Shown in pieces: positions 17,237 to 62,375 of a stretch of DNA of 64,000 nt (its first letter is position 1; each line of letters begins with the position of its first letter). The stretch lies in the NCBI RefSeq assembly GCF_002105155.1, contig NW_019028990.1:117501-181500 (forward strand). The letters are read 5' to 3'. A program made the position numbers and the translations under genes. The notes beneath the pieces are model-generated. The model was not told the origin of the DNA, ran no database searches, and saw only the letters and a program-made list of their open reading frames with translations. This stretch comes from Lobosporangium transversale (lineage: Eukaryota; Mortierellomycota; Mortierellomycetes; Mortierellales; Mortierellaceae).

Positions 17237-18319
17237 CTAGCTGGTGCAATTTATTCTTTTTTTTGTATGTTCTCTATCATCAATGGAGATATTGAGGTAA
17301 AACGATTGCCTCAACCATGGATGGTCATGTGTCACCGTGGGTCGCTCCTCGACAGCTTTCTTGGTGTTCAAGTAAATTGCCTAAAATTATAAGGAATGCT
17401 AAGTTAATACAAAAGCGTCTGCTGAAATAGGCCTTGACAAATAATTCAGATTCTAACCTTTGCAGCCTCCAGAATTGGCACTGCCTCTGCAATCCTTTCA
17501 AGAGTCTCCATACCCTCGAACAATGTAATCTTGCCCAATAATCTAGGGAGATAAAGGGCTTCGCAATCTAGGGACATTACGAAGATCTTCATTTGACCCT
17601 CTAGGAATGTAAATTAGTACCACTCTGTCTCCATTTAAATTTCATAGATTGTATATAATAAGGATGTAACATACTTTGGACAGGCAGACCCAGGACCTTT
17701 GGGTCTTTAACACTGTTGACGATCAAGAGATCTAGTGCCAGCTTCATTTCAGAAAGTAATTTTCTGAAATCTTTGTCAAGGAGATCTTGGGAGATTTTTG
17801 GAAGTTTTACCTCTGTAAGGAGCAGAGACAGACCGTTGACCAAGATCGTACTATCTGCGCTAAAGGACTCTCGATAGTACGCCGCTGTCGGGAAATCAAA
17901 GTCGCTAGAATAGCGGAGGCGTGTTATACCAAGAGTGAAGGAAAAAAACATGTTAGCATCCTACAGAAATGACAAATACCCGGTAAGCTCACTACTTACC
18001 AGAGTCCCACGGTTTCTGCAATGGCGCGCAGGTAGGGCCTGACATACAAAATGTCGTATGTCAACTCGTTCAATTTCCTTGGCGATGTCCAATACATCGC
18101 ATCATCAAGGCTATGGAAAAAGCTCTTGAGCATTTCACTTGCTCCTTCCCAATCCTCTTTGAGAAGATTGCGGATCTCGGAAGGAGATTTCGACGCCTTT
18201 GCTTTCTCAATGCAGGATTCGTTGAATGCCAAATCCTGCTCACTCAAGGCCATCTCAGACCTTGCAACCTTGAAAAGGGAATTGATACGACCCTTGTACT
18301 TCTGAATATATTTCTCCAT
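17237..18319 (-). CDS. Unrecognised accessory protein, at least 4 exons
   Basis: Minus-strand join 18319..18000, 17904..17675, 17600..17458, 17380..17237 gives 278 aa with every junction in phase (donors GTAAGT, GTATGT, GTTAGA; acceptors TAG). Clean splicing with matched phases argues that it is a real gene. Exon 1 is helical (RINSLFKVARSEMAL, and YDILYVRPYLRAIAETVG). The third exon has an amphipathic helix pair (LFEGMETLERIAEAVPILEA). No catalytic motif or signal peptide is seen and I do not recognise the family. The true start is uncertain: the frame continues upstream of 18319 to an acceptor near 18352, and a further exon ending at about 18439 keeps the phase, but that exon is interrupted by a T23 insertion flanked by direct repeats and no ATG remains. 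Confidence 0.6.
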
Positions 18320-18452
18320 AAACTCCTTCGTGAAAATGAAGTTTAAGGAGCTAGAAAATCATTAGAAGGGTTGTATCAGCATCACGACCTTCAGCGTGTT
18401 CTAAATAAACGAGGGTATATATATATAAAGCACTTACAGAATATCCTCCGAA

Positions 18453-18495
18453 GAGAAGAGTGTTTTTTTTTTTTTTTTTTTTTTTGAGAAGAGTG
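18453..18495. repeat. T23 tract flanked by 10-bp direct repeats
   Basis: GAGAAGAGTG occurs at 18453-18462 and again at 18486-18495, with only 23 T between (18463-18485). Removing the tract and one copy restores the continuous sequence that would join the upstream exon of the minus-strand gene. It reads as insertion of a bare poly(A/T) segment with target-site duplication. Confidence 0.85.
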
Positions 18496-18834
18496 TCCCG
18501 GTAAATAAATTTATTTAGTATTACGTGCATTAACTATGCATTAATATTTATCATGCGGTCAACGTCCAATAAACGCGATAAATACCAAAGGATATTTTTA
18601 TTTAATGTTGTTCTAAGCACTCAGGCACCTTTTTTTTACCTTTAATGAAGATCACGCCATGCAAGAAAAGATTGATTTGTAATGTCAGGAATGAATCAGG
18701 ATGAAGCTGGCAATAGGAACAATAAATTGAAGTTCATTTTGCTTCTCATTCTTTCCTTCCTTCCTTCCTCTTTAACTTGTCTATATCACAAACCCATGTC
18801 CTTAGATCTACTCGCTTTTCACATTACTTGCATT

Positions 18835-19086
18835 ATGTCATCCTCCAACAACGCTGCTTCCTCTTCTACCAGCAGAGTCGCTGGCAAAAAACGTGCTCGT
18901 GAGGAATTGGAAGAAGATAAGGGCGCGAGTCGCCAGACCTCGCCTTCACCAGACGGTCCACCTGCTGATCCAGCGTTCCACTACGTGCCATGGGAGCGTC
19001 CCGCCAGAGAAGTGAGCACGATTAAGAAGCTTTTTCTGGAGAGCGAACTCTGCAATTTCGGGGCGCGGACAGAGAGTGCGCTCTAA
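18835..19086 (+). CDS. Small Ser/Pro-rich ORF, possibly a truncated gene
   Basis: An ATG at 18835 opens 83 codons: a Ser-rich start, a basic patch (AGKKRAREELEEDKGA) that could act as a nuclear signal, a Pro-rich stretch, and a helix (VSTIKKLFLESELCNFG) before a stop. About 30 nt downstream a related sequence (CTCTTTCTGGAGGGAGGACG) resembles the segment before the stop. It may be the 5' end of a longer decayed gene. I do not recognise it and have no splice support. Confidence 0.3.
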   Translation: MSSSNNAASSSTSRVAGKKRAREELEEDKGASRQTSPSPDGPPADPAFHYVPWERPAREVSTIKKLFLESELCNFGARTESAL

Positions 19087-19715
19087 CAGGATAGAGATGA
19101 AGTACGACCTCGCAAGTACCTCTTTCTGGAGGGAGGACGACAACTCGATTTATCCAGGAAATCCATGAAACGTAATGATTTTGATATATTCTGGGTACAT
19201 GAGCGTCGTAACCTGATACTAGCTCCTATTGGAGTTATGCATCGTGTAAATAGTAACAATCAAAGGTGATCTTAGGTGGAATCGAAGGTCAAAGGATACT
19301 TTATTTAGCTATAACGTAGTGGACTATTTATACTGATTGTTTTTTTTTTTACTGGCGGCAAGAATGACGTGGGATTGGGTGTTCAACAACACGCAATGGG
19401 ATAGTTAGCGGTAGAAGTAGGCTTCTTCATCCAAAGCTGAGCAAACCATTGAAGGCAGAAGTGAAAAGAAGCCTTAATCGAGGAAAAAGAGGGCTTTGCA
19501 GTCATATTGATCTTAGACCCGCATATTCGACTTCATTTAGTTTTGTTTGTGTGGCCAGTGCATGTTTGTTTGCTCCACTGAAATCACTTTAGACTATCAC
19601 CCTATCTCAATTTTTTGATTTTATGAGAAAGGAGTGTGTAGCGAGCCTTAACTGATGACACTGATACAAATATATTTTTTTGAATACAGTCCTGTACATT
19701 TATAAGGACTCTTCC
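19087..19715. other. Stretch with no supported gene
   Basis: About 630 bp of moderately AT-rich DNA with stops in all frames. It may be decayed flank of the neighbouring fragments. No repeat or RNA gene recognised. Confidence 0.3.
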
Positions 19716-20242: not shown

Positions 20243-20967
20243 GGGAGAAGTCAAGTGTTGTCCGTACATTTTTTTTTGTATTCTTGTAATTTATTTAATT
20301 TGTAATTTTTAATTTTTATTTTATATATTTTTTTTAATTTGAGAAATAAAATTTATTTAATGTGCAGTGTGCAAAAGTGAAGAGAAGAAAGAGGGAGAAA
20401 GATGAAGAGAAAAGAGGAGAGAGGAAGAAAAAGAGAAAAAGAGAGGAAGAAAAGAAGAAAAGAGAGAAGAGAGAACTTTGGAGTGAGTGCAGACGGGAGT
20501 AATCGGGGGAATGAAGAGTCTTTCCCTGCTCATAAACGACAATGACAAAAAAAATGAGAGTTGTTCCCTACGACTTGAACGACATTTGTACCAAAAAAAA
20601 AAAAAAAAAATTTCTCTGCGGTTTGTGGACTTAGAAAAAATTCAAAAAAGTTGACATAAGCCACACAGGCTGGTGACGAGCCTACCATCATTGTTTTTTA
20701 CAATCACACCCTTCATTCATTACCATCTCTCTTTTACTTAATTACTCTACTTCTAAAATTTACTTCTCATCCTCTCGCAATTACCACTTTCTTCTTTTCT
20801 TGATAGCCTTCATATATAATCGCTTCTTGTATTTCATTTTCAGAATTTTATTTCATTGCGCCACCATTTTTATTTGCGATTATCAGAGTTATCAGAGGTA
20901 AAATATTACACTTGAATTATATGACAACGCACCATTTAAGCGCTCTTTACTGTTAATTACGTAAATT

Positions 20968-21006: not shown

Positions 21007-21140
21007 TAAACCTAAGCTACTGCATATTCATTCTATCTTCCCTCACTTAGCACTCCTGTCATTATTTCTCTCTTTCTCGAAAATCACGTATTTCCACTTC
21101 TCGTAAGTCTTAGATACCCTCAATTCACCACTCCTATATT

Positions 21141-21572
21141 TCCAACATATGGCCTGTATATGCCCCCTGCATGTCCCCCAATGAGCTTACCCTCATTGCC
21201 CGACAGCAGCCCGCATGTATTCCCCATTTCCTTCTGTCATTGCCCGACATACTGCTCGCATATGCCTCCTATATGTTAACATTCGAATACTGTCAATGTA
21301 CAGCATACAGCCCGCATATTGCCCCCTATATGTCCTCCAATGTCTTTATTAGTGTTTCCAACATATGGCCTGTATATGCCCTCTGCATGTCCCCCAATGA
21401 GCTTACCCTCATTGCCCGACAGCAGCCCGCATGTATTCCCCATTTCCTTCTGTCATTGCCCGACATACTGCTCGCATATGCCTCCTATATGTTAACATTC
21501 GAATACTGTCAATGTACAGCATACAGCCCGCATACTGCCCCCTATATGTCCTCCAATGTCTTTATCAATGTC
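21141..21572. repeat. 216-bp tandem duplication with internal sub-repeats
   Basis: Copy 1 (21141-21356) and copy 2 (21357-21572) are almost identical, differing at only a few positions (for example GCCCCC versus GCCCTC, and CATATT versus CATACT). Inside each copy a roughly 35-bp degenerate unit recurs about four times, built on GCCCG/CATATG and CCTATATG followed by TCC(T/C)CCAATG. The period is exactly 72 codons and a single frame is open across both copies (21171-21614). Confidence 0.9.
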
Positions 21573-23127
21573 ACCAAACTTTTGGGGAGTATTTCCAATT
21601 CAATCCCTATCTAAAGTCTATTATTCCTATCAACATCTCTTTTTGAGTTCACTGCTTTCCTTAGTAAAACAAGTACACTATCTCAATAGATAAATGGAGC
21701 AGATGCCAAAAAGCCTGTCAAAGGATGTCAAGCCTAAGCACTGGAAAGATGAAATTGATTCCAGTCGAGTAGGCGCTGAATATTTCTTATCACAACCTGC
21801 ACGACCTGTCTTTATTCCAGCAAATTATATCCTTTCGTGCTTTGGGGCAGGAGGACTCAGATCAGCTATTGTCAGAATGGTCGCAGTGGATGGATGATCT
21901 TGGACGAAGCAATTATGAACATATTCGTCGAAGGGCAAAGTCAGCTGGGATCATGACAAAATATGACATCGACAAATATTATAAAACAATAGAAGCTAAA
22001 ACCTGGAGAGATGAGATTGATGCAAATCGTGAAGGAGCTGGCTATTTCCTACTACAGCGTGGACGCCTTAACTTTAATCCGACAGACTATATAGCCTTTC
22101 GAAGATTGGAAAGGTCAGAGTCATATAAACTACCAATAGAATGGTCACAGTGGATTCTGGATCTCAAGGAAAGCAGTGACGAGCATGTCCGTCGGAAGGC
22201 TGATGCGGCTCCTATAATGGGAAGAGATGACATACACGGATACTACAAGAATATTATTGTTGATGAACATGAGCTGGAGATTCTTGGATTATCATCAAAG
22301 CAAACAATTGGAGGGAGCCATCATCTTGCATCCCTTCTGGAAGATCGACAAGGTACAATACATTCAAGTCTTTCTGATAATACTACTAGCGATTTAATCT
22401 TTAGTTAACTTTTTTTTTTCATTGTATTCTATCTTGATAGCAGGGAAACCCAATACTACACAGTCGCCCACAAGATTGCCTTCAGTGCCTATGAGTCCTT
22501 CGGGTAAAGTTGATTTTCAAGAACTATATTATCATTATTATTACTATTGTTGTTGTTGTAATTACTATTTCATCATCATCTAAACAACGTGGTTTGCTAC
22601 CATTTTCTACTCTGTTACTCTGCTTTAATTAGAATCTACACAAGATCAGAACTTGCGAAATGATGACCAGCATCTTGACATGCCACGACAAAAGAAAGCC
22701 CGCATTTGTTTGTCGCCATTTCCACTTCATGGAGCGTCCTCAGTATCTTCCCGCCACACACCTCCTTATGCTGGGGGGTCAGCAGACTCCTCCCCTGAGT
22801 TGTCAACGATCTCACCTCCCTCATCTCCGGATTTTACTCTTGATGGCGTTAATGTGGAGCAGGAGGCGAACTCTTTTTTTTCCAATGTTGGTACTCTACA
22901 AGATATTCTCTTCAACAGTCTTCAGGAGGGTAAAAACATACCTTCATGGGCCAAAAACCGACCGCTAAACACCTTCATATTGCGGCTCAAGGAAGACTGG
23001 GGCGTTAGAGTTACAAGTTTGTATTACAAACCAGAGGCTCATACCGATGTCTTACCGCTGCCATTTTTGGTTAGTCCGCTATCAATTACAAAAGGTTTAT
23101 TAAGTGGTAGGCTTATAATTGACTAAT

Positions 23128-25242: not shown

Positions 25243-25574
25243 TCTGTACAAACATTTTTTCCGTGGGTATTGTATTCAATTTAAAAATGAGAGAAATATG
25301 TTGGTCGACGACTTTAAACAAATATATTTGAATTGGATAGAATGCTTCCTTTTCTATGCGCTTTTTTTTTTTTTTTTTTTTTTTTTTTGGCCATAGCGTT
25401 TCTTGTTGTCAACAACTCGTCTCAGACTCCTATCCTCTGCATCAAACTCATGAGGTTCGTGCGTGGGTTTCTGTTTTCCGACTCTTATGACTTTTGGCGA
25501 AGATTTAAAATATTTTAAATGGCGTTGAAAATAGTCAAAAAAAATAAAAATCCCACATTCATTTTTCCATTACA

Positions 25575-26529: not shown

Positions 26530-29500
26530 ATGCCACCAAGAAAGCCAAGGACAATACACCCACTGTTTGCTAATGTCGCTAGAGCAAAGGTCATGGATAA
26601 ATCTGGATATTATGAATACCATAACTCACCATCTCCAAGCGCCACTGCCACTACTGTCATGGTTGATGATGATAATCCCCAAGGTAGTGCCATAGACAGT
26701 GCTGAATCTTCAAGCATGATTGGCGGGACCAAGAGAATCAATTATTTTGGACTAGACGAAGAAAGTTCCGACGAGGAAGTGGACGAGGAACGGCGACAAA
26801 GCATCATCAATGGAAAGCGAAAAGCAGATGAACAACTAGAGCCTCTGCCGAACCCAAACCAGCGGGCTTTTATTCAGCTCCCACAACCAACTCTACTTGA
26901 AAGGCAGGATAGGAATCTCGATATCTCAGTCAAGATCGGTTTAAGAGAGCAAGGAGCAGTTACAAGAGCTTCGGCCATTGATCCGGAATTCGAGTCGCCT
27001 CAAAACAACAAAAGTCTAGAATCTAAAACGAAGGTGGAGTTCCGTGAAGCGCAGGCTATGGTACGTGCCCAAGGAGTGCGGGTAGATACTCTTCGAGACA
27101 GTAGTAAGAAGAGTTATGAACGATATATTCGACATTGGAAGGTACGTTAAAGTAATCAAATTTTGCTATAAATTATCAGGAATAAATCAAGCATTCAAGC
27201 CGTGAATTAACTCTCTTCTGTTAGTCTTGGTGTTTCCGTAAAGGATATGGAGATGACTACAGGGTTCGATATGCAAAATTCCACGTATATATGGAGGAAA
27301 ACTTGGCAGATGAGCCTTCCTTTGCGGAAAATCCTGAGGATTGTATTTTACCTATCCGTTGCAAATCAGTGAAGAAAAAGCCATCACCGCCATGCTATGA
27401 AACTGGAGATCGAGCACAGGATGTCAACGAATATCGCTCCAATTTGAATGGAAAGGCAGCTTCATTTGAACTGATTGATATGCATATAAAAGCCTGCGTG
27501 GATTTGTGGGAGCAGCAGATGGTCGATCCTGCCCTAGATATGAGTAATGAACGTCACCCACGATCAAAAGCGATTTGGACTAGGATGGATATTTATAGAA
27601 GGAAGATGAATATAGAGAAGGTTCCGCACAAAAGGCGAGTAGTGCTGGATCGGGGCGATGAACTGGAGGAAATTAAAGAAGTAATGAAAGCAGCGTGGAT
27701 GAAATCAAAAGGCCAAATCCGAATTGGGCTTCGTGATAGGCTGGATGCGGCTTGGTCTCACTTTCTAATGGCCCGAGGCGAGAGCCTAAGATACGCCACT
27801 CTTGGCAACATTGAGGCCCATACATTTCGCCAAAAGGATCCGGCTGGACAATATTGCCTAGGTGTCATCCTCACAATGTTGCAAGGCAAGACAAACGACG
27901 GCAGCCATGAGATGTACGGGGTCGCTGTCAGAAATATAGATGTTGAGCTCTGTCCTGTTGGTGCCCTAGGGTTTTATTTTCTTGACCAATTTGAGGTAAA
28001 TGCAGCTATTCGCTTATTTACAAAACTCTTTATATATACATACTATTTTCAAAGGCCATCGTGCTAATAGTTTCTGTAGTTCCAGGGCGGACCACCGGAC
28101 TTCAACACTCTTGGTGAGGATTGGACGAAGCTTCATTTAATTCATGGTGGCGATAGCACTAAAAAATTTAGTCAATCTGGACATCATCAACCATCCTTCA
28201 AAGCGCAATCAGGAGCTGGAGTGGCTATACCAAACAAAGTAACTCATAGGTATCGTGGCTCTGGAGCTCGTCATGCTCAAGAGGCTGGTGCAGATGTCAG
28301 GTCGATTTCACAGCATGGTGGATGGTCAACTGAGCGTGTTATTACACATTACTTGAGCAGGATTTCTCCAAATGTTGCTTTGCGTATGGCTGGCTTTACA
28401 AACCACGATGAGCCATTTTGGCTACCTAGGAATACTTTCCTCCCGCCAGCTGAGCTTCAGCGTGAGATCTTTCCATTCATCGAAAGTAGTTTTGGTGGAC
28501 ATCCTGACTGGAAAGCCATCGTTGAAAACGTTATGATGGACCGTAATCGTGGGTATGGTAGGCGTCCTGAGTCGAGGTTTAACCCTAGCAAATCAGAGCT
28601 AATATTATCACGCTTTCTTTTGCTGTTAGCTCACTTGCGAAAGGTGATTCTACAGGACGCTGTCGCTCTTTCTCAGACTCAGAATGATCCTGCGAGTAAC
28701 TACATGATGCATCGTATATTTGGCCTTCCATTATTTAGGAGTTCATTGTACTCGGATTTTAAATCGAGACTTATGGAGCGGATGATTACAGAGTCATCGC
28801 CTACCTCAGACAGCCTTCGCACTAATGCGCCAGCTATTCATTCAGAGTTCCGAGCGATGAAAAATAAGCTTAATGACATTGATCGGAAGCTTGGGACGGG
28901 ACTAGTCGGAGACTTCGAAGGAATGATGGAACGTCAACAGACTCTGTGGACACATGCGATTGGCAAGGCTTTTTTAGAAAGCACCAATATGACGGTTCGA
29001 GAACTTGAGCGGGTTGGTTCGTCCATTAAGATGAGCATAACCCAAAGTCGCCAATTATTTTTTGAAACACTGAGCAGAGTAGCTCAAGAAGCAGGAAGAA
29101 AGGAGTACATAAAAGTACAACAGGAAAAGAGGCAACTAAAAGCTAAAATACAACAACCTGCATTGCAAGGGATTCTGGGCAGGCTGTCGAGAGAAGTTCC
29201 ATCATCTAGTAGCTCTGGCATTGATAACTTATCACCACCTAGAGATCCAGAGGATTACCAGCAAGGGAGTGAGAGCGAGAGTGGCGAAAGTGATAGTGGC
29301 CAGGAGAGCGAGCCGGTTGAGCCGGTTGAGCCGGTTGTTATTAACGAAACCGTTATTGCTGTTGATGATCATTCTCATGATGATCAAGATCTATGTGATC
29401 AATTTAACGAGGCACTTGGCACTGACGCACTGGATCAAAATTGGGAGGACCAAGAAGGCCAAGAGGACCAGGAGGCTGGTCAAAATGCAGAAGGACAAAG

Positions 29501-29990
29501 GCGATGGGATAACGAGAAAGAGCTAGAGAAAGAGCTTGGAATGCGCTTGTGCCCATATGTACCTGAATTTCACTACATGGAAATGGAACCAAGGGATAGG
29601 CCGATTCGTGATCTTTGGAAGGAGTGGTTTTATGGAAACGAAGAAAAACCTTCAATATGTCGTATGGAAATTGAACATGGCAGTAGATGGCGTCCTGGCA
29701 ATGCCAAGGCTGCAGTATATTTATTCAAGAAGCGTCTAATCAACTCCGTTCTTAGAGAAATGACCAATGCGGAGCCCAATCTCACGGTGGAACAACGTAT
29801 TTTTTATGCATTGGACAGCGTTCATTTAAAGATATCTCAAGCAGGATCAATTAATAAGTATGAGAAATCTCTTCCAAAAGGCGCTCCAAAACGCCGCCGA
29901 GCTCCTGTACAAGAACCGGACCAGCAAGGTCAGTTAGACCAGCAAGATCAGTTAGAGCAGCAAGATCAGTTAGGCCAACAAGATGCATAG
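26530..29990 (+). mobile_element. Crypton-type tyrosine recombinase gene, intact, 3 exons
   Basis: Join 26530..27141, 27225..27995, 28080..29990 gives 1097 aa, all junctions in phase 0 (donors GTACGT, GTAAAT; acceptors TTAG, GTAG). After a disordered N-terminus a core-binding helix bundle spans the first junction (KKSYERYIRHWKSWCFRKG). The catalytic part has the Arg-I box (RGESLRYATLGNIEAHTF), the H-x-x-R box (VTHRYRGSGARHA), HGGW and the nucleophile region VITHYLSR, so R, H, R, H/W and Y are all present. Further on come helical and acidic linkers, then a GCR1_C-type DNA-binding domain (IRDLWKEWFYGNEEKP, GSRWRPGNAKAAVYLFKKR), the combination typical of fungal CryptonF. The tail is a Gln/Asp/Leu repeat. 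It would integrate circular copies by site-specific recombination; Ndc10-like domestication is an alternative reading. Confidence 0.85.
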
Positions 29991-30528: not shown

Positions 30529-32171
30529 CCCCGTGCAAATAAAAAAAGACCCTCGTGCAAATAACTTTTTTTTATTTGTATGGGGGGAGCAGTGTAAATA
30601 GAGTGTGTACGGGGCAGTGCAAATAGATTTTTTTATAAGTAAAAATTTATGGATTAATCTATTTGGCAGCCCAGTTGCTAAATATTATTTTTTTTTTTTT
30701 GATAACAAGGACCCTCAGGATCATGGGATTTATTTTCTACACTCTATGAACAAAATGCTCCAGAAACTATAGCCAATAAACAGCTATTACTGCACAAACG
30801 ACAAGAGCCGCTGTATCCATGATTTCATAAACCCTGACCGCCGTGGTTGGTACTCAAAGTCCACCTTTCCGACGTGGCCTGTTGCGCAACGCGACAAATT
30901 ATCCGCTATCCATAGTCATCAAAAACTTCATTCCACCTAGCCGCTCCATCACGTCCAGTTTGGTTTTCCCAAGGTAACTGTCCCGGACTCGGTCATCCGC
31001 GATCTTGTAGATCTCTTTTACATTCAGCTTCTGTGAAGGGACAAGGAAATCATTGCTACTACGTCTGTGCTCCCCAACACAGTTGCGTCCTCTAGCGCGT
31101 TTGCTCATAGCAGTGATTCCACGAGCCTTTTCCCATTCAACGGTGACTTTACACCGTTTGTTCCAGATTTCTGTACGACCGAATTCCTCTATGGCCTTGA
31201 CGAAGCGCCCTGCCATATATGTAGCTATCCTTGTTGTTGTCTTGAAGCCAACTTTCCAACTCTGAGCAATGGACTTGGGCGTAAGTCCATGGTAAATGTC
31301 CTGCACAGACCAATCTGGTGTGTGCTCTCTCTCTTCCTCATCATCGCCGTTCCTATCACCATGGCGTCGTACTTCTCGCACACCATCGATATGCATCTCC
31401 AGAGTTTTCCAAATGTAGTCCTCCTCTGCCGCAGTAAAAGTTGGCTCTTTTGTCCTTGGTGGGTCTACACCTCTCTCTCTGGCCCTTTGTGCTTGCTCCT
31501 GCACTGCTTTCAACTCTTTCCTCCATGTCCTCTCCCCTATCACATTCACATTTTGGATTATCTCCTTCCACTTCTCGGCCTGAGTCTCCATCGTCCTTGG
31601 ACATCTCCAGATGTGCGATGTGTCTTCATCCTCTGTCCCACACACTCTGCAGTTGCCGTCTTCATCCCAGTTGCTAAATATTATTTGGCAGCCCATTGCC
31701 AAATATAGTCAACTTTCAAGACTCTCTTTGGCAGCCCAGTTGCCAAATAACATTCATTATTTACTTGGCAGCCTACCCAGCGTTATTTGGCCTCTAACTA
31801 TTTTTTTTTTTTTTTTTTTCATTCCTAGGAACCGTATATGTTTATAACGCTCATACTTCAAATTAATAAAGCTCCCGTCTTCTACGTCATAGTTATGTGT
31901 AGTGACATTGTCTTCAAGTAGGTCGCTCATACAGTTTTGGAGGTGCCATTTGGAGATCAATGCCTATGAGAGGTTTTCGCTCGGAGCAAACGCGTCTCAC
32001 CTACTACCTAGACGTCTTCAATAAACCATTCCCTAGCCGTGTACATTGAAGGCTGTTTTGTGAAGATGTCATCGCCGCTGCCCTTAGTACCTCCGGCGGC
32101 ATTAGCTGTGCAAGGCAATGTATCCACAGAACGCTGCTTGTTTTACCACTGATGTTATGACCCTGTTTATC

Positions 32172-32203
<32 letters not shown>

Positions 32204-32343
32204 TGTATTTGGCAGCCCAGCTGCCACCCAAGAGTGCGAAGTTAAGTGGCAGCCCCCAGAAGTAGGCTGCCAAATAGAGGCAAAAATTACTATATTTGGT
32301 ATGGGCTGCCAAATAGATTAATCCAAAATTTATTTGCACGGGG
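30529..32343. mobile_element. 1.8-kb inverted-repeat element with TTTGGCAGCC units
   Basis: The ends match as inverted repeats: CCCCGTGCAAATAAA at 30529-30543 against its complement at 32329-32343, and a perfect 23-bp pair at 30651-30673 and 32302-32324 starting GGATTAATCTATTTGG. Inside, a palindromic unit of the form TTTGGCAGCCCAGTTGCCAAATA recurs, for example at 31684-31705 and 31727-31749, with partial copies near 30662, 31768, 32208 and 32250-32276. No transposase is present; the only coding sequence is a non-LTR retrotransposon fragment. It behaves like a foldback-type or nested non-autonomous element. It ends 90 bp from the tRNA-Lys gene. Confidence 0.7.
30899..31675 (-). mobile_element. 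Non-LTR retrotransposon 3' ORF fragment
   Basis: A minus-strand open frame of 267 codons, whose first codons come from an internal TTTGGCAGCC unit; the retroelement part begins at about 31675. It starts with the Cys/His cluster CRVCGTEDEDTSHIWRCP (C-x2-C, then H and C), the zinc knuckle found near the end of LINE-type reverse transcriptase polyproteins. A helical, basic region of about 230 residues follows (WKVGFKTTTRIATYMAGRFV, and RFVKAIEEFGRTEIWNKRC). The reverse transcriptase and endonuclease domains are missing, so this is a 5'-truncated copy. Open frame to the stop at 30899 suggests a recent insertion or selection. Confidence 0.65.
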
Positions 32344-44836: not shown

Positions 44837-45091
44837 ATGGAAATGGTAAAAATTATCACAACAATAAAATCTAGTTATTTTTTATTTTTTTTTTATTTTT
44901 ACTTTTAAATTGGGTTATTTATGTACATTAATTTCTTCATTATGGAAGCAAGATAGCATGATAAATGTATAAAATAATGGTGATGATGAGAACGACAATG
45001 ATAATGATATAATGATAACGATAATATAGGCGACATCTGCCAATAAATAAATAAAATAATGATAAATAAATAATAATTATAGTGCTTTTCT

Positions 45092-55332: not shown

Positions 55333-56063
55333 ATGTCAACTCGGAGGTCAAAACGAAGGCCTCGTAAGGCTATCAACATTAAGTGCGTCGTAAGGGAGTG
55401 GAAAAAAAAAAAAAAAAAAAGGAAGAGACCCTAATGCATTACATTGGGTGCATCTCTCTCCAAGTTGAAATTCAATGCTGAGGTACTACATTCTTTCTGT
55501 TTATATGCTGCGAGGTGCTAAATTCTGCTTTCTTTCTTTTTTTTTTTTTTTTTTTATTTCTTTAAAAAAAATTACTGATAGTAATGCGCATTATGTCGGA
55601 TATGTTGAAGAAAATGAGTCCATTGAGGCTATTATGAAGAAGTTTGAGGAGCTTGCGCGTATTGAGGAGGAGATTGCAAAATCCAAAGCCGCAGCTTCAT
55701 CTAGCAATCCAAAGAATGACAATGAGGCATCAGGATCGAGTCCAGGGCCAGGATTAGGGGCGGATCCAGACTCGGGATCGGGATCAGGATCGGGATCAGG
55801 ATCGGGATTAAGAAGCGGACCATTCGAGGCTGACGGAGAAGTGATCTTTGGGGTAGAAAAAAAGCAAAATACTCCTAATGAAGACCAAGGATTTACAGAT
55901 GAACAACTCCAGGAGATCTTTAGAAGGACTTCAGGTTTTACAGTCAGATCAATGCTTAGAGATACACCCGATGATATTTATGAGGAGGACTTGTGGCAGG
56001 CAAGCATTGCAGATGAAGATTACCTTTATGACTTTGAGGAGGAAGAGTAAGTCAGAATCTTTG

Positions 56064-56099
<36 letters not shown>

Positions 56100-56610
56100 T
56101 TTCCCAGAACATATTACGAGGCCTAATAGGATCCCTTGATTTCTTTTTTTTTTTTTCTCTCAACTTATTAACACGATTTTCTCCTGGCCTATCTCCTTCT
56201 CTACTTTATGACATGTTAGCGATTACTTGATGGCTATGGACGATGCCTTCTGGGATGAAGAAATGAAGACATCAAAGAAACGTGGCCGTAAAGAGAAGGA
56301 GCCCCGACCGCCTAAAGCGCCCAAAGAACCCAAGATCAGGGGAGTAGGAGAGAAGAGGAGGCTTCAAGGAGCGGACCGGGAGTCGATTCTACAAAGGTAC
56401 AAAGTTATGCAAGTCCGTCTGCAGGACCGAAATGGAGTGTTTTATACCGTAAAGAAAAAAGTCTTGACTATGGACCCTAGTCTACCAACCTATGTGCGCA
56501 TTCCACCTGTCCCTATACCTCGATCATGGATCCATCCTATCAAGACGCTGGAAAAGCAGGCGCAGCTACAGAATAATATTCCTGGTTCGCGGTAAGTTTT
56601 ATTATTATTA

Positions 56611-56657
<47 letters not shown>

Positions 56658-57582
56658 TTTGGAAGCAAATATTTATTTCTACCTTTCTCTCCCTGTATAT
56701 TCGCCAATCAAGGTACGAAGAAACGACAAATATTCTAGAAATGGACTTGACGCGATTCGGGACTGACTTCCAAGCTATTTACATGGATCCACCGCTTTTG
56801 CGTAAAGGAGAAGAGGCAGGACCCAACAAGATTACAATGGAACAACTGGGTGCCATCAATATTAACGCGATCCTACCCAGGGGATTTCTGTTTGTGTGGT
56901 TGGAAAAGGAATTTTTACCGGAGATGGTTCGTATGGCTGAAAAGTGGGAGATGCGGTATGTGGAGAATTTCTGTTGGATCAAACGAAATGTGAACAATCA
57001 GATCGTACGCGACAAATCGCCCTATTTCAACTCATCCAAATTATCTCTGTTGATTTTCCGCAAAGTAAGGAATGGAATCAAATATCCAAGCGATAGGTTT
57101 CTGCTTTTATTTTTATTTTATTTTATTTTTTTAACTTTTCGAGCGGCTTTAATACTTTAAATGGACTTTTAGGAGGCTGATGTGGACATTAGACATCAAA
57201 GAAGTCCGGATTGCGTGTTTGATTTCGTCAAACCCAGTGATCCAACAGAGCTCTCAGAAGAAAAACCAGTGTTCATGTATGAGCTTATTGAAACTCTATT
57301 GCCTCAGGCCGTCTATTCAGAGAGTAATCCCAATGGCGAGCGGATGCTAGAACTGTAAGTTTTTTACTTTACAAACATGATGACTCCAATCGATTGAGAC
57401 CAAAGACCTTTTTTTTTTTTTATACATCTATATTTTTGCTTCTAACTTTTTATTTTTTATTTTCATTTTTTTTATACATGTATATATATTTTATTCCTAC
57501 TTTTCTTTTTTGTTCATACAGCTGGGCCCGGAAAGGAACAAAACGTAAAGGTTGGACTTCGATCTGTCAATTGAAGGTATAA
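55333..57582 (+). CDS. MT-A70 family methyltransferase, DPPL type (candidate 6mA complex subunit)
   Basis: Join 55333..55382, 55582..56046, 56220..56591, 56713..57064, 57173..57354, 57522..57582 gives 493 aa, all in phase. The N-terminus is basic (RRSKRRPRKAINI), followed by a Glu/Lys helix, a Gly-Ser run (SGSGSGSGSG), acidic and Lys-rich segments, then the MT-A70 domain: DFQAIYMDPPLL (DPPL at 321-324), FLFVWLEKEFLPEMV, YVENFCWIKRN, and the C-terminal MLELWARKGTKRKGW. MT-A70 enzymes methylate adenine N6 in RNA (METTL3/14) or DNA (METTL4, MTA1/MTA9). Canonical active subunits have DPPW; DPPL/EPPL marks METTL14-like or MTA9-like partners. The best reading is a partner subunit or divergent enzyme. 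Confidence 0.8.
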
Positions 57583-59739: not shown

Positions 59740-62375
59740 GGTCTCCTCTTATACCATAGCTGTACAACAGCGTCACAGACTGCATGGTGATCAACAGGAC
59801 TAAGCTCAGGTAAATTGGACAACAGCTCAATGTGACCTTTTTTTCAATCATGATTTAGTAGCTATTGTCAGCTAACGTTTATAAAGTCTTACTTGGATAT
59901 GGCACGGCTGATTCCCTAGAGACAGGTCACTTTAAATGTTTTACAGTTGTAATAAAAGCGAGTTTACTCTTCTTACAACATCTTCGTTACCGAATTATTG
60001 CTTCTTTTTAAGACATTATATACAAATAAGCAACTTACATAATCTTTATTTCTCATTTTGAAGTGTCTAAACTTTCCATAAAAGGAAAAGGAGATTCAAT
60101 GAGATTGTTTTACCTTCATTAAAAAAAAGACATGAGACATGAGATCATTTCTTTGAGGATGTAAAGTGAGTCAAGGAAGGGTGGACAAAAAAATCCGCGC
60201 GGCATGTCCAAGTAAAAAAGAAATAAAAAAAATTTAGACAACTTAATTTGAGCACGAGCCACATCCACTCCGACTCGACGAATTCGCCACGCGACATGTG
60301 GCAATGCACTATGCACTACTGGCCATGACGTGAAGTTTTTACAGATGTAAACAGACAAATTAGAGTACATGTAGAGTGCTCGCATTGCTGGTCATTCATG
60401 GACTCGGTGGATGTAATGTAAGTCCTTCTCGTCCGTCCTCCTGTCTCTTACGGATTTGTTAAATATGCTTTTTTTTTTTTTTTTTAAAGGGGAGGGGGGG
60501 GGGGGAGCCTGTCAATCCTACAATTCCCCGGGCTTGGGAGCAATGGCCTATAGCAATACTCTCCTTTCATTTAACTAAGCTTCCTATCTCCTCGCTAGCC
60601 CTTTCATCTCTTCCATTAGGTTTATCCTCATTGTCCAATATTTTGAACACGTTCAAAAAAGCTACTCTACGGTTTATGTATGATCCAATCAACCATGCAG
60701 CTACCCAGCTGATGCTGCATGCCTACCAACCAGTAGCCTAAAACTAAGATCAGAGGCACCGCATCGACCTTTCCTGAGACCATGCAAGAGAATGAAGAAG
60801 TTATAAGGAAAGATCATAATATCTCATTGCAGACTAAAACTTCTTTCCGATAGAGCATAGGTAGTGTCGACTATGACTTTTTCTTTTATATTTTTGCAAC
60901 GTTCCAGTGGGGCAGACACATACACATCCGACAGACCCCCTATACATTGGAGAGGTGCGGATTCTCCTTTCTTCCTCCTTTTACGAGCAACTGAAGAAAT
61001 TATTCAAAGACTGATTTAAACGAAGAGAAACAATTAAAATAAGGAGTTCATTTCCTTTGTTATCCTATGCTCTTCAGTCTCCATAGGCTATTCAATGTAC
61101 TATCCTGTCTTATCCCAGTCCTTTTCCAGACCATAATTACGAGAACATCATGTAGACTTTAATGCTCTTGAGATAATAATAGCAATAAAAGCAGATAAGT
61201 ATTAACAACAACCATGAGTAGACTATGGAGGCCATCGTTACCGTATACTGATACATATTAAAGTATAACAAGGGAGTAGTGAGTATATAGTATAGATTAT
61301 AATGGGGGGGGGGGGGGGGGGGGAGGTTAAATAGCACGCATGCAAAGGTTAATTGCCTAGAAGACCATATTATGATGCTTCATCGGCTTCGTCTTCTTCA
61401 ATAAAAAAAAAGAACCCTTAACCAATGGCGACGTTGTATTTCATGAAGGAAAGGGGAATGTCTGAATGTGGGGGAAAGTGTGTTTTAATTGTCACGAAGC
61501 AATAAGCTTTTTGCGGATCAGTCTTTTTTTTTTTTTTTTTTTTTTTCACACTTGACTCGGTGGAATAGTAAAAGATTCCACCGTGTCAAAACTTTAAAAA
61601 GTGAGCGGAAGTCAACAGCGCACACACCACAATACAGATTTTTCTTTCACTTTTACTCGGTGGAACAACAAGAAAATGATCTGCTGCGGTCTATGTCCAT
61701 CATTAGAGTAAAAAAAAATAAAGAAAAGATAAAAATAAGTACCGGAAAAGTGATCAAGTCTGCAAAAAGGGTCCTAAGGATACTTCTCGCATGAGCTATA
61801 TACATCCAATGGCTTGAATCAGCAGGATCCTCTAGGGAGAAAGGGAAACAGACAATGAGAAAGCAAGGGTGCAACCAGAACAAGGGTTTCTTTTTTGTTC
61901 GTTTTTTTGGGGTTATGTATGTGTGAAGTATCTATTAGGACTGGTTGCTTCTTATTCTTAATTGGGTATGACAAAGCGGGCAAAACTTTTTCTGTAGTCG
62001 CTTGTATTCTCTTTAGACTTGTCAGTCTCTAGAATTGATTATGCATCATGATGGGTGCTGGTTGTATGACAGTTCATTCTATCAACCTTTCATTGAACGA
62101 ATGGAATGGGCGCAAGCAAAAGAGGTATCGGAAAACAATCAATTGGTGGAAGTCTTTTTTTTTTTTTTTTTTTGTCCTCGTGTATAAATTAATTTCCTGC
62201 TTCTCACTCCTCTCCTTTTCATTATCATTCATCCCGAATCTCATTTCTGTTTGTTGAATTTGTCGATTCATTCCTCATTCTCACCTTCTCTCCCCTCTTT
62301 CTCCTCTCTCCTCTCGTTCTCTTTACCTTTTTTTTCTTTTCTACTAATCTTGCTTACATCAATCCATATCCAAAC
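58743..62375. promoter_or_regulatory. Long divergent intergenic region with G runs
   Basis: About 3.6 kb with no supported gene. Contains A/T runs (58849-58873, 59711-59739, 60471-60485, 61525-61546, 62156-62173) and two G runs (60488-60505 broken by one A; 61303-61323). A short inverted repeat (GGTGGAAT..ATTCCACC) lies at 61558-61582. The SHMT promoter is CT-rich (62280-62340). ORFs here are short and unsupported. No tRNA recognised. Confidence 0.4.

Follow-up and report, generated by a model that had tools for sequence, protein, structure and literature searches.

A tract of 23 T residues flanked on both sides by the same 10-bp sequence is found in the 64,000-nucleotide stretch of the Lobosporangium transversale genome analysed here (hereafter the window), and we consider it likely that this tract, referred to as T23, is the product of a retrotransposition event reduced to its tail. 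In this reading, T23 is one well-supported instance of an already known type of event, and, judging from a 224-kb sample of the genome, such events are not the origin of the A/T runs of the window.

The T23 tract and its unoccupied site in paralogous loci

The arrangement GAGAAGAGTG - T23 - GAGAAGAGTG occupies positions 18453-18495 of the window sequence, where both 10-mers are identical and adjoin the T run without any spacer, exactly as the preliminary description had reported. A T follows both copies of GAGAAGAGTG, so that the duplication has 10 or 11 bp, depending on how it is read, and the insertion, composed of the tract and one copy of the duplication, has a length of 33 bp. The features of this locus are as follows.

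17530..18500, minus strand: gene copy in which the insertion lies; 74% match of related loci over 17530-18464, extended by eye to ~18500
18453..18462, no strand assigned: left copy of the putative target-site duplication, GAGAAGAGTG, or 11 bp with the first T included; exact sequence
18463..18485, minus strand: T23 on the plus strand, A23 on the minus strand; presumed copy of an RNA poly(A) tail, with no other body
18486..18495, no strand assigned: right copy of the putative target-site duplication, GAGAAGAGTG, followed by TCCCGG; exact sequence
18504..19204, plus strand: second, unrelated repeat family (genome search), which starts a few bases to the right of the insertion and ends the homology of the gene copy

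Among the 84 homopolymer runs listed for the window (A/T runs of 10 or more and G/C runs of 8 or more), T23 is unique in having an exact flanking repeat of at least 8 bp within 3 nt, the runners-up being matches of 7 bp at 55537 (TTTCTTT) and of 6 bp at 44885 (TTTTTA). From the base composition, the chance of an abutting exact 10-mer repeat is 1.3e-6 per run. A harsher empirical estimate is given by the 10-bp repeats found across any 23-nt gap, which occur at 6 of 63,867 window positions (~9e-5 per run); this rate corresponds to a chance of ~0.5% over the 51 window runs of 15 or more and to about two chance cases over the 24,353 genome runs of 17 or more. Because the harsher rate allows these two or so cases genome-wide, the repeat by itself is not proof. 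When the flanks of 180 runs were mispaired in 60 reshuffles, abutting repeats never reached 7 bp.

A genome search with positions 17900-19300 returned at least 43 matches, 40 of 90 candidates having been scored. Among the matches listed, the left part of this query recurs at 71-85%, while the right part, from 18504, belongs to the other family (72-94%), and the T tract is located just inside the end of the left repeat family. The comparison was made with diverged paralogues (~74%), namely all 11 listed places matching the left part, rather than with an allele of the orthologous site in a different strain. In nine of these 11 loci, which represent about three sequence classes and are not nine independent witnesses, the site is unoccupied: a single GAGAGGAGCG, identical to GAGAAGAGTG at 8 of 10 positions, runs into TTCCCTGG without a T run. 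The remaining two loci diverge before the insertion site. The TCCCGG found after the right GAGAAGAGTG is close to the TTCCCTGG of the unoccupied paralogues, although the homology on this side is cut short ~6 bp beyond the second 10-mer by the start of the second repeat family. Since related copies carry an unoccupied site, the T tract and its duplication are, on the basis of sequence comparison, an insertion relative to the empty site of the paralogues.

In L020, the paralogue that was translated, the site lies in an open frame ending ..EEERQGTLLSPHDIL before a splice-donor-like GTGAGT. Its frame ..QGTLLSPHDIL corresponds to ..TGTLFS-K7-TLFSSEDIL in the window, where the donor-like site is GTAAGT. 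Because the two frames match on either side of the tract, both sides are homologous to one uninterrupted exon. The 33-bp insertion preserves the open frame of this paralogous exon, to which it would add seven lysines, a one-in-three coincidence.

Poly(A)-tailed LINEs and the proposed origin of T23

The window also contains a copy of a poly(A)-tailed LINE, composed of the following features.

30670..30687, no strand assigned: LINE target-site duplication on the tail side, CCCAGTTGCTAAATATTA, 18 bp; exact sequence
30688..30700, minus strand: T13, the poly(A) tail of the LINE copy; junction TTTTTTTTTTGATAACAAGG
30701..31665, minus strand: body of the LINE copy, 965 bp, 5'-truncated, with most of the open frame 30899-31708; from genome copies
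31666..31683, no strand assigned: second copy of the 18-bp target-site duplication of the LINE; exact sequence

The tail junction TTTTTTTTTTGATAACAAGG is found 154 times in the genome and its reversed control 0 times, and the tails at 32 clean LINE junctions range from T6 to T35. A genome search was made with the window LINE region, in which the best 40 of 449 candidates were scored. Among the matches listed, the long LINE copies are 89-98% alike, and most of them share the tail end (query 282-304) and have ragged 5' ends, the stop points being, among others, 1265 (the limit of the window's own copy), 1218, 1129, 1094, 1086, 1072, 1041, 1001, 974, 881, and 876. A short repeat bearing TTTGGCAGCC is present in several copies in this part of the window (30657-31773, 32208-32320), one of them being the target of the LINE.

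The C-terminal protein of the window LINE subfamily has relatives in stop-free frames of up to 1692 aa, and PF14529 endonuclease matches occur in 1676-aa frames located ~4-5 kb from copies of this subfamily on C37. A sister subfamily, with a C-terminus 47-48% identical to that of the window subfamily, has 2002-aa stop-free frames at C39, C51, and C83 containing both PF14529 and the C-terminus. The tail junction is common to this sister subfamily, being found beside the C39 and C51 frames among the matches listed. A match to RVT_1 (E 2.2e-8, 34.5 bits vs. a cut-off of 29.6) is given by 600 bp of the C39 frame, and hence comes from the sister subfamily, not from the window's own. From these domain matches, the genome holds poly(A)-tailed LINEs with a predicted endonuclease and a predicted reverse transcriptase in related copies. 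A different LINE, that of L046/L047 (99.6% alike over 3.26 kb, RVT_1 1.4e-32), was rejected as a source model, its shared end GTTGTTGTT being without poly(A); read by eye, this end overlaps an antisense open frame.

Twenty tail junctions were examined, corresponding to the first listed after exclusion of the known long copies and with two already-seen places skipped. In four of them, bodies of 26, 22, 18, and 41 bp are enclosed by exact duplications of 17-20 bp, and in a fifth a decayed duplication surrounds 21 bp of body; at least four others (L081, L089, L093, and L094) leave the LINE sequence inside the stretch examined, by eye, without a recognisable duplication. In a further copy, which neighbours a longer one, T13CT10 is followed by ~20 bp of body, with a 17-bp duplication around both. 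Of the 11 end pairs of longer LINE copies that were scored, two had exact duplications, of 17 bp (body of ~840 bp) and 20 bp (body of ~600 bp). The duplication abuts the T run in eight LINE copies, always with a size of 17-20 bp (18 bp in the window copy), and the layout of the small copies is duplication, T run, body, duplication. A tail-only T23 would represent the limit, with zero body, of this 5'-truncation series, whose members have 18 to 965 bp of body. In the window sequence, no LINE 3' end (GATAACAAGG) is found beside T23, the duplication adjoining the T run directly, and the 10-11 bp of its duplication fall outside the 17-20 bp range of the eight exact LINE duplications.

In the mechanism proposed here, a LINE-type endonuclease would nick the chromosome after GAGAAGAGTG(T), and the freed 3' end would serve as the primer for reverse transcription, with the poly(A) tail of an RNA (LINE, SINE, or mRNA) as template. 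Copying would then halt inside the poly(A) tail, and a cut of the second strand ~10 bp away, followed by filling in of the ends, would yield GAGAAGAGTG - T23 - GAGAAGAGTG. The T23 is on the strand whose 3' end would prime, and a pure T run cannot reveal an RNA origin. We infer such a LINE as the maker of T23, and likewise the RNA that was copied, which cannot be named because no RNA-derived base besides T remains. Because the duplication has 10 (11) bp instead of 17-20 bp, a different endonuclease or an atypical cut is needed, and this size mismatch could possibly be due to the same endonuclease with an unusual second cut, to another LINE, or to the repair of a staggered break.

Other routes to the same arrangement must be weighed against this one. 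An 11-bp tandem duplication (GAGAAGAGTGT twice) could have come first, the single T between the copies having later slipped to T23. The repeat is readable as two adjacent GAGAAGAGTGT copies, and run lengths do vary between copies in this genome (19 to 30 and 23 to 35 at the same sites, and T6 vs. T27 elsewhere). However, it is well established that a single T offers no substrate for slippage, and the two 10-mers are still identical, leaving little time for the growth from T1 to T23. This order of events is also at odds with the threshold of ~5 units above which unit-wise instability is reported for human repeats (PMC12769509), and it appears unlikely to us.

A staggered break could also have been repaired by end joining, with 10-nt 5' overhangs filled in and a T-rich filler ligated, either a captured poly(A) cDNA or an untemplated addition. 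Such a repair yields the same duplication and filler with any overhang length, and the 17-20 bp of the LINE duplications are therefore not required. Nevertheless, a filler made of a pure 23-nt homopolymer needs a poly(A) template or a special polymerase, neither of which is seen here, and a source is more simply provided by LINEs, which deposit poly(A) tails at duplications, making end joining a very improbable origin. Finally, an ordinary T run could lie by chance between two similar purine-rich 10-mers, as would be expected in about two cases genome-wide (24,353 runs of 17 or more at the harsh rate of 6 in 63,867), but for the window this rate amounts to ~0.5%. Moreover, the unoccupied paralogues, with one 10-mer, homology on both sides, and no T run, largely refute such a coincidence, which can hardly be credited.

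Other A/T runs of the window and the genome

The genome comprises 42.7 Mb in 127 contigs, with 12,159 T and 12,194 A runs of 17 or more. A repeat protein of the window finds its best matches among Lobosporangium transversale records (96% over 74% and 87% over 37% of the query), whose names belong to two locus-tag series, BX616 and BCR41DRAFT. The preliminary description had proposed tail copying as the mechanism behind the many A/T runs of the window, with an excess of flanking direct repeats as its mark. Runs were sampled in 224 kb, consisting of the window and a further 16 stretches (10 kb each), of which ten belong to the same contig as the window, and the tests of this generalisation used exact, offset, and one-mismatch repeats, shared k-mers, imperfect repeats, and a mixture fit. 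An abutting repeat of 7 bp or more was found in only one of 180 sampled runs of 15 or more, namely T23 itself. In the mixture fit, the fraction of runs with a duplication was estimated at 0.7% for an identity of 95% (upper limit 2.9%) and at 4.5% for one of 65% (upper limit 10.5%). The same fit without T23 gave 0% (upper limit 1.3%) and 3.1% (8.8%), respectively, and the mispaired controls averaged 0.1% and 1.9%, with maxima of 1.4% and 7%. When a body of up to 1100 nt was allowed, repeats of 10 bp or more were found in 3 of 179 runs vs. 2.6 expected. The full GATAACAAGG LINE 3' end was present behind 0 of 181 sampled runs of 15 or more, with prefix matches of 3-5 bases in eight.

Contrary to this picture, a small excess was observed at offsets of up to 2 nt, with repeats of 6 bp or more in 5 of 180 runs (0.8 expected, highest control 3) and of 7 or more in 3 of 180 (0.42 expected), and also for k-mers shared within 20 nt of the runs (four 8-mers vs. 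1.2 expected, two 9-mers vs. 0.34). Apart from T23, we put this excess down, by eye, to pyrimidine-rich flanks and do not take it as a signal. Abutting repeats of 10 or more were also found in 4 of 255 short runs of 8-14 (0.13 expected), which may be interrupted homopolymers.

The idea that all A/T runs are retro-insertions was thus rejected, as there is no excess of abutting repeats in the 224-kb sample; the fitted 0-3% for the other runs (upper limits 1.3-8.8%) is similar to the controls. What stands from the preliminary description is the poly(T)-only insertion by LINE-type copying at the T23 locus, favoured by the empty site in nine of 11 paralogues, by the poly(A)-tailed LINEs, and by bodies as short as 18 bp; its extension to the many A/T runs of the window does not, with one of 180 runs having an abutting repeat of at least 7 bp.

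The paralogues of two other runs also speak against insertion, as they already hold a shorter run at the site: the A18 at 20593 corresponds to A14, within one alignment, and the T27 at 25362 to T6, by eye in a diverged stretch. The copies of another repeat family have their runs in common, mainly with differences in length. A search for the empty sites of 210 runs recovered only shared length-variable runs, from one family; it is a weak test, as it missed T23's own empty site because of too little right-hand homology.

The lengths of the A/T runs in the 224-kb sample (the window and L022-L037) are two-humped, with a second mode at 26-29. A preferred run length resulting from an expansion bias that turns into a contraction bias has been modelled for mammals (PMC12769509). 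The growth of existing runs with a preferred length would explain the A/T runs of the window better than insertion. For T runs of 15 or more, the share preceded by C is 59-65%, depending on the length bin, vs. 34% for T2-T4 runs, and a C is found before the LINE tails in 15 of 32 junctions. We consider it quite improbable that tail-only retrotransposition has repeatedly seeded long A/T homopolymers in this fungal lineage, with a small supply of fresh insertions (the duplication being visible in at most ~3% of long runs), slippage to 26-29, and decay of the duplications. If true, such recurring seeding would also explain the two-humped run lengths and the excess of C before T runs.

Several other features of the window were recorded. 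The 224-kb sample has only three G/C runs longer than 8, and two of these, the G20 at 61304-61323 and the G12 at 60494-60505, lie in the window. Two adjacent open frames at 27225-29990 contain NDC10_II (in the first, just under the cut-off) and GCR1_C domains, a pairing that we take to be typical of Crypton-like tyrosine recombinase elements. The translation of the open frame at 21114-21614 displays, by eye, a long near-exact internal repeat. Finally, an open frame at 56468-57160 contains an MT-A70 adenine methyltransferase domain, and a T13A31 tract is located upstream of this domain in the stop-to-stop frame.

Significance and relation to known systems

As a retrotransposition event reduced to its tail, T23 would be a clean non-mammalian example, found in nature, of a retrotransposon insertion as short as it can be. 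The intermediate bodies present in the same genome (18 to 965 bp, each in an exact duplication) could inform on how early reverse transcription fails after priming. In addition, the lack of this mark in the other sampled runs cautions that the A/T runs of a genome of this type should not all be taken for retrotransposition scars. In the literature on fungal homopolymers and on Mortierella retrotransposons, retrieved by searches not aimed at such insertions, no title concerned tail-only insertions in fungi.

Within this genome, the length-variable A/T microsatellites resemble T23 in their base and length range (sample mode 26-29) but lack a flanking duplication, and the compared paralogues already carry a run at the site. 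The genome's own poly(A)-tailed LINE is similar to T23 in the order of its parts, that is, duplication, T run, (body), duplication. In contrast to T23, which has no body and a duplication of 10-11 bp, the measured LINE copies keep at least 18 bp of the 3' end and have exact duplications of 17-20 bp.

Outside fungi, bare poly(A)/poly(T) insertions have been reported in human disease genes: a T(n~120) in NF1 exon 25 was interpreted as an Alu, L1, or processed pseudogene with severe truncation, and three simple poly(A) insertions published earlier are cited in the same paper (PMC3219598). This human case differs in its tail of ~120 and in the comparison with the parent's allele, whereas T23 is fungal, has 23 nt, and was identified in a reference sequence compared with paralogues; the T23 nick site is also unlike the AA-TTTT consensus given there for human LINE-1 (PMC3219598). 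Nevertheless, T23 shares with the human LINE-1 simple poly(A)/poly(T) insertions the bare homopolymer, located in that case at a LINE-1 endonuclease site, and the duplications of 6-17 bp reported in that paper for all but one of its insertions take in the 10 bp of T23 (PMC3219598).
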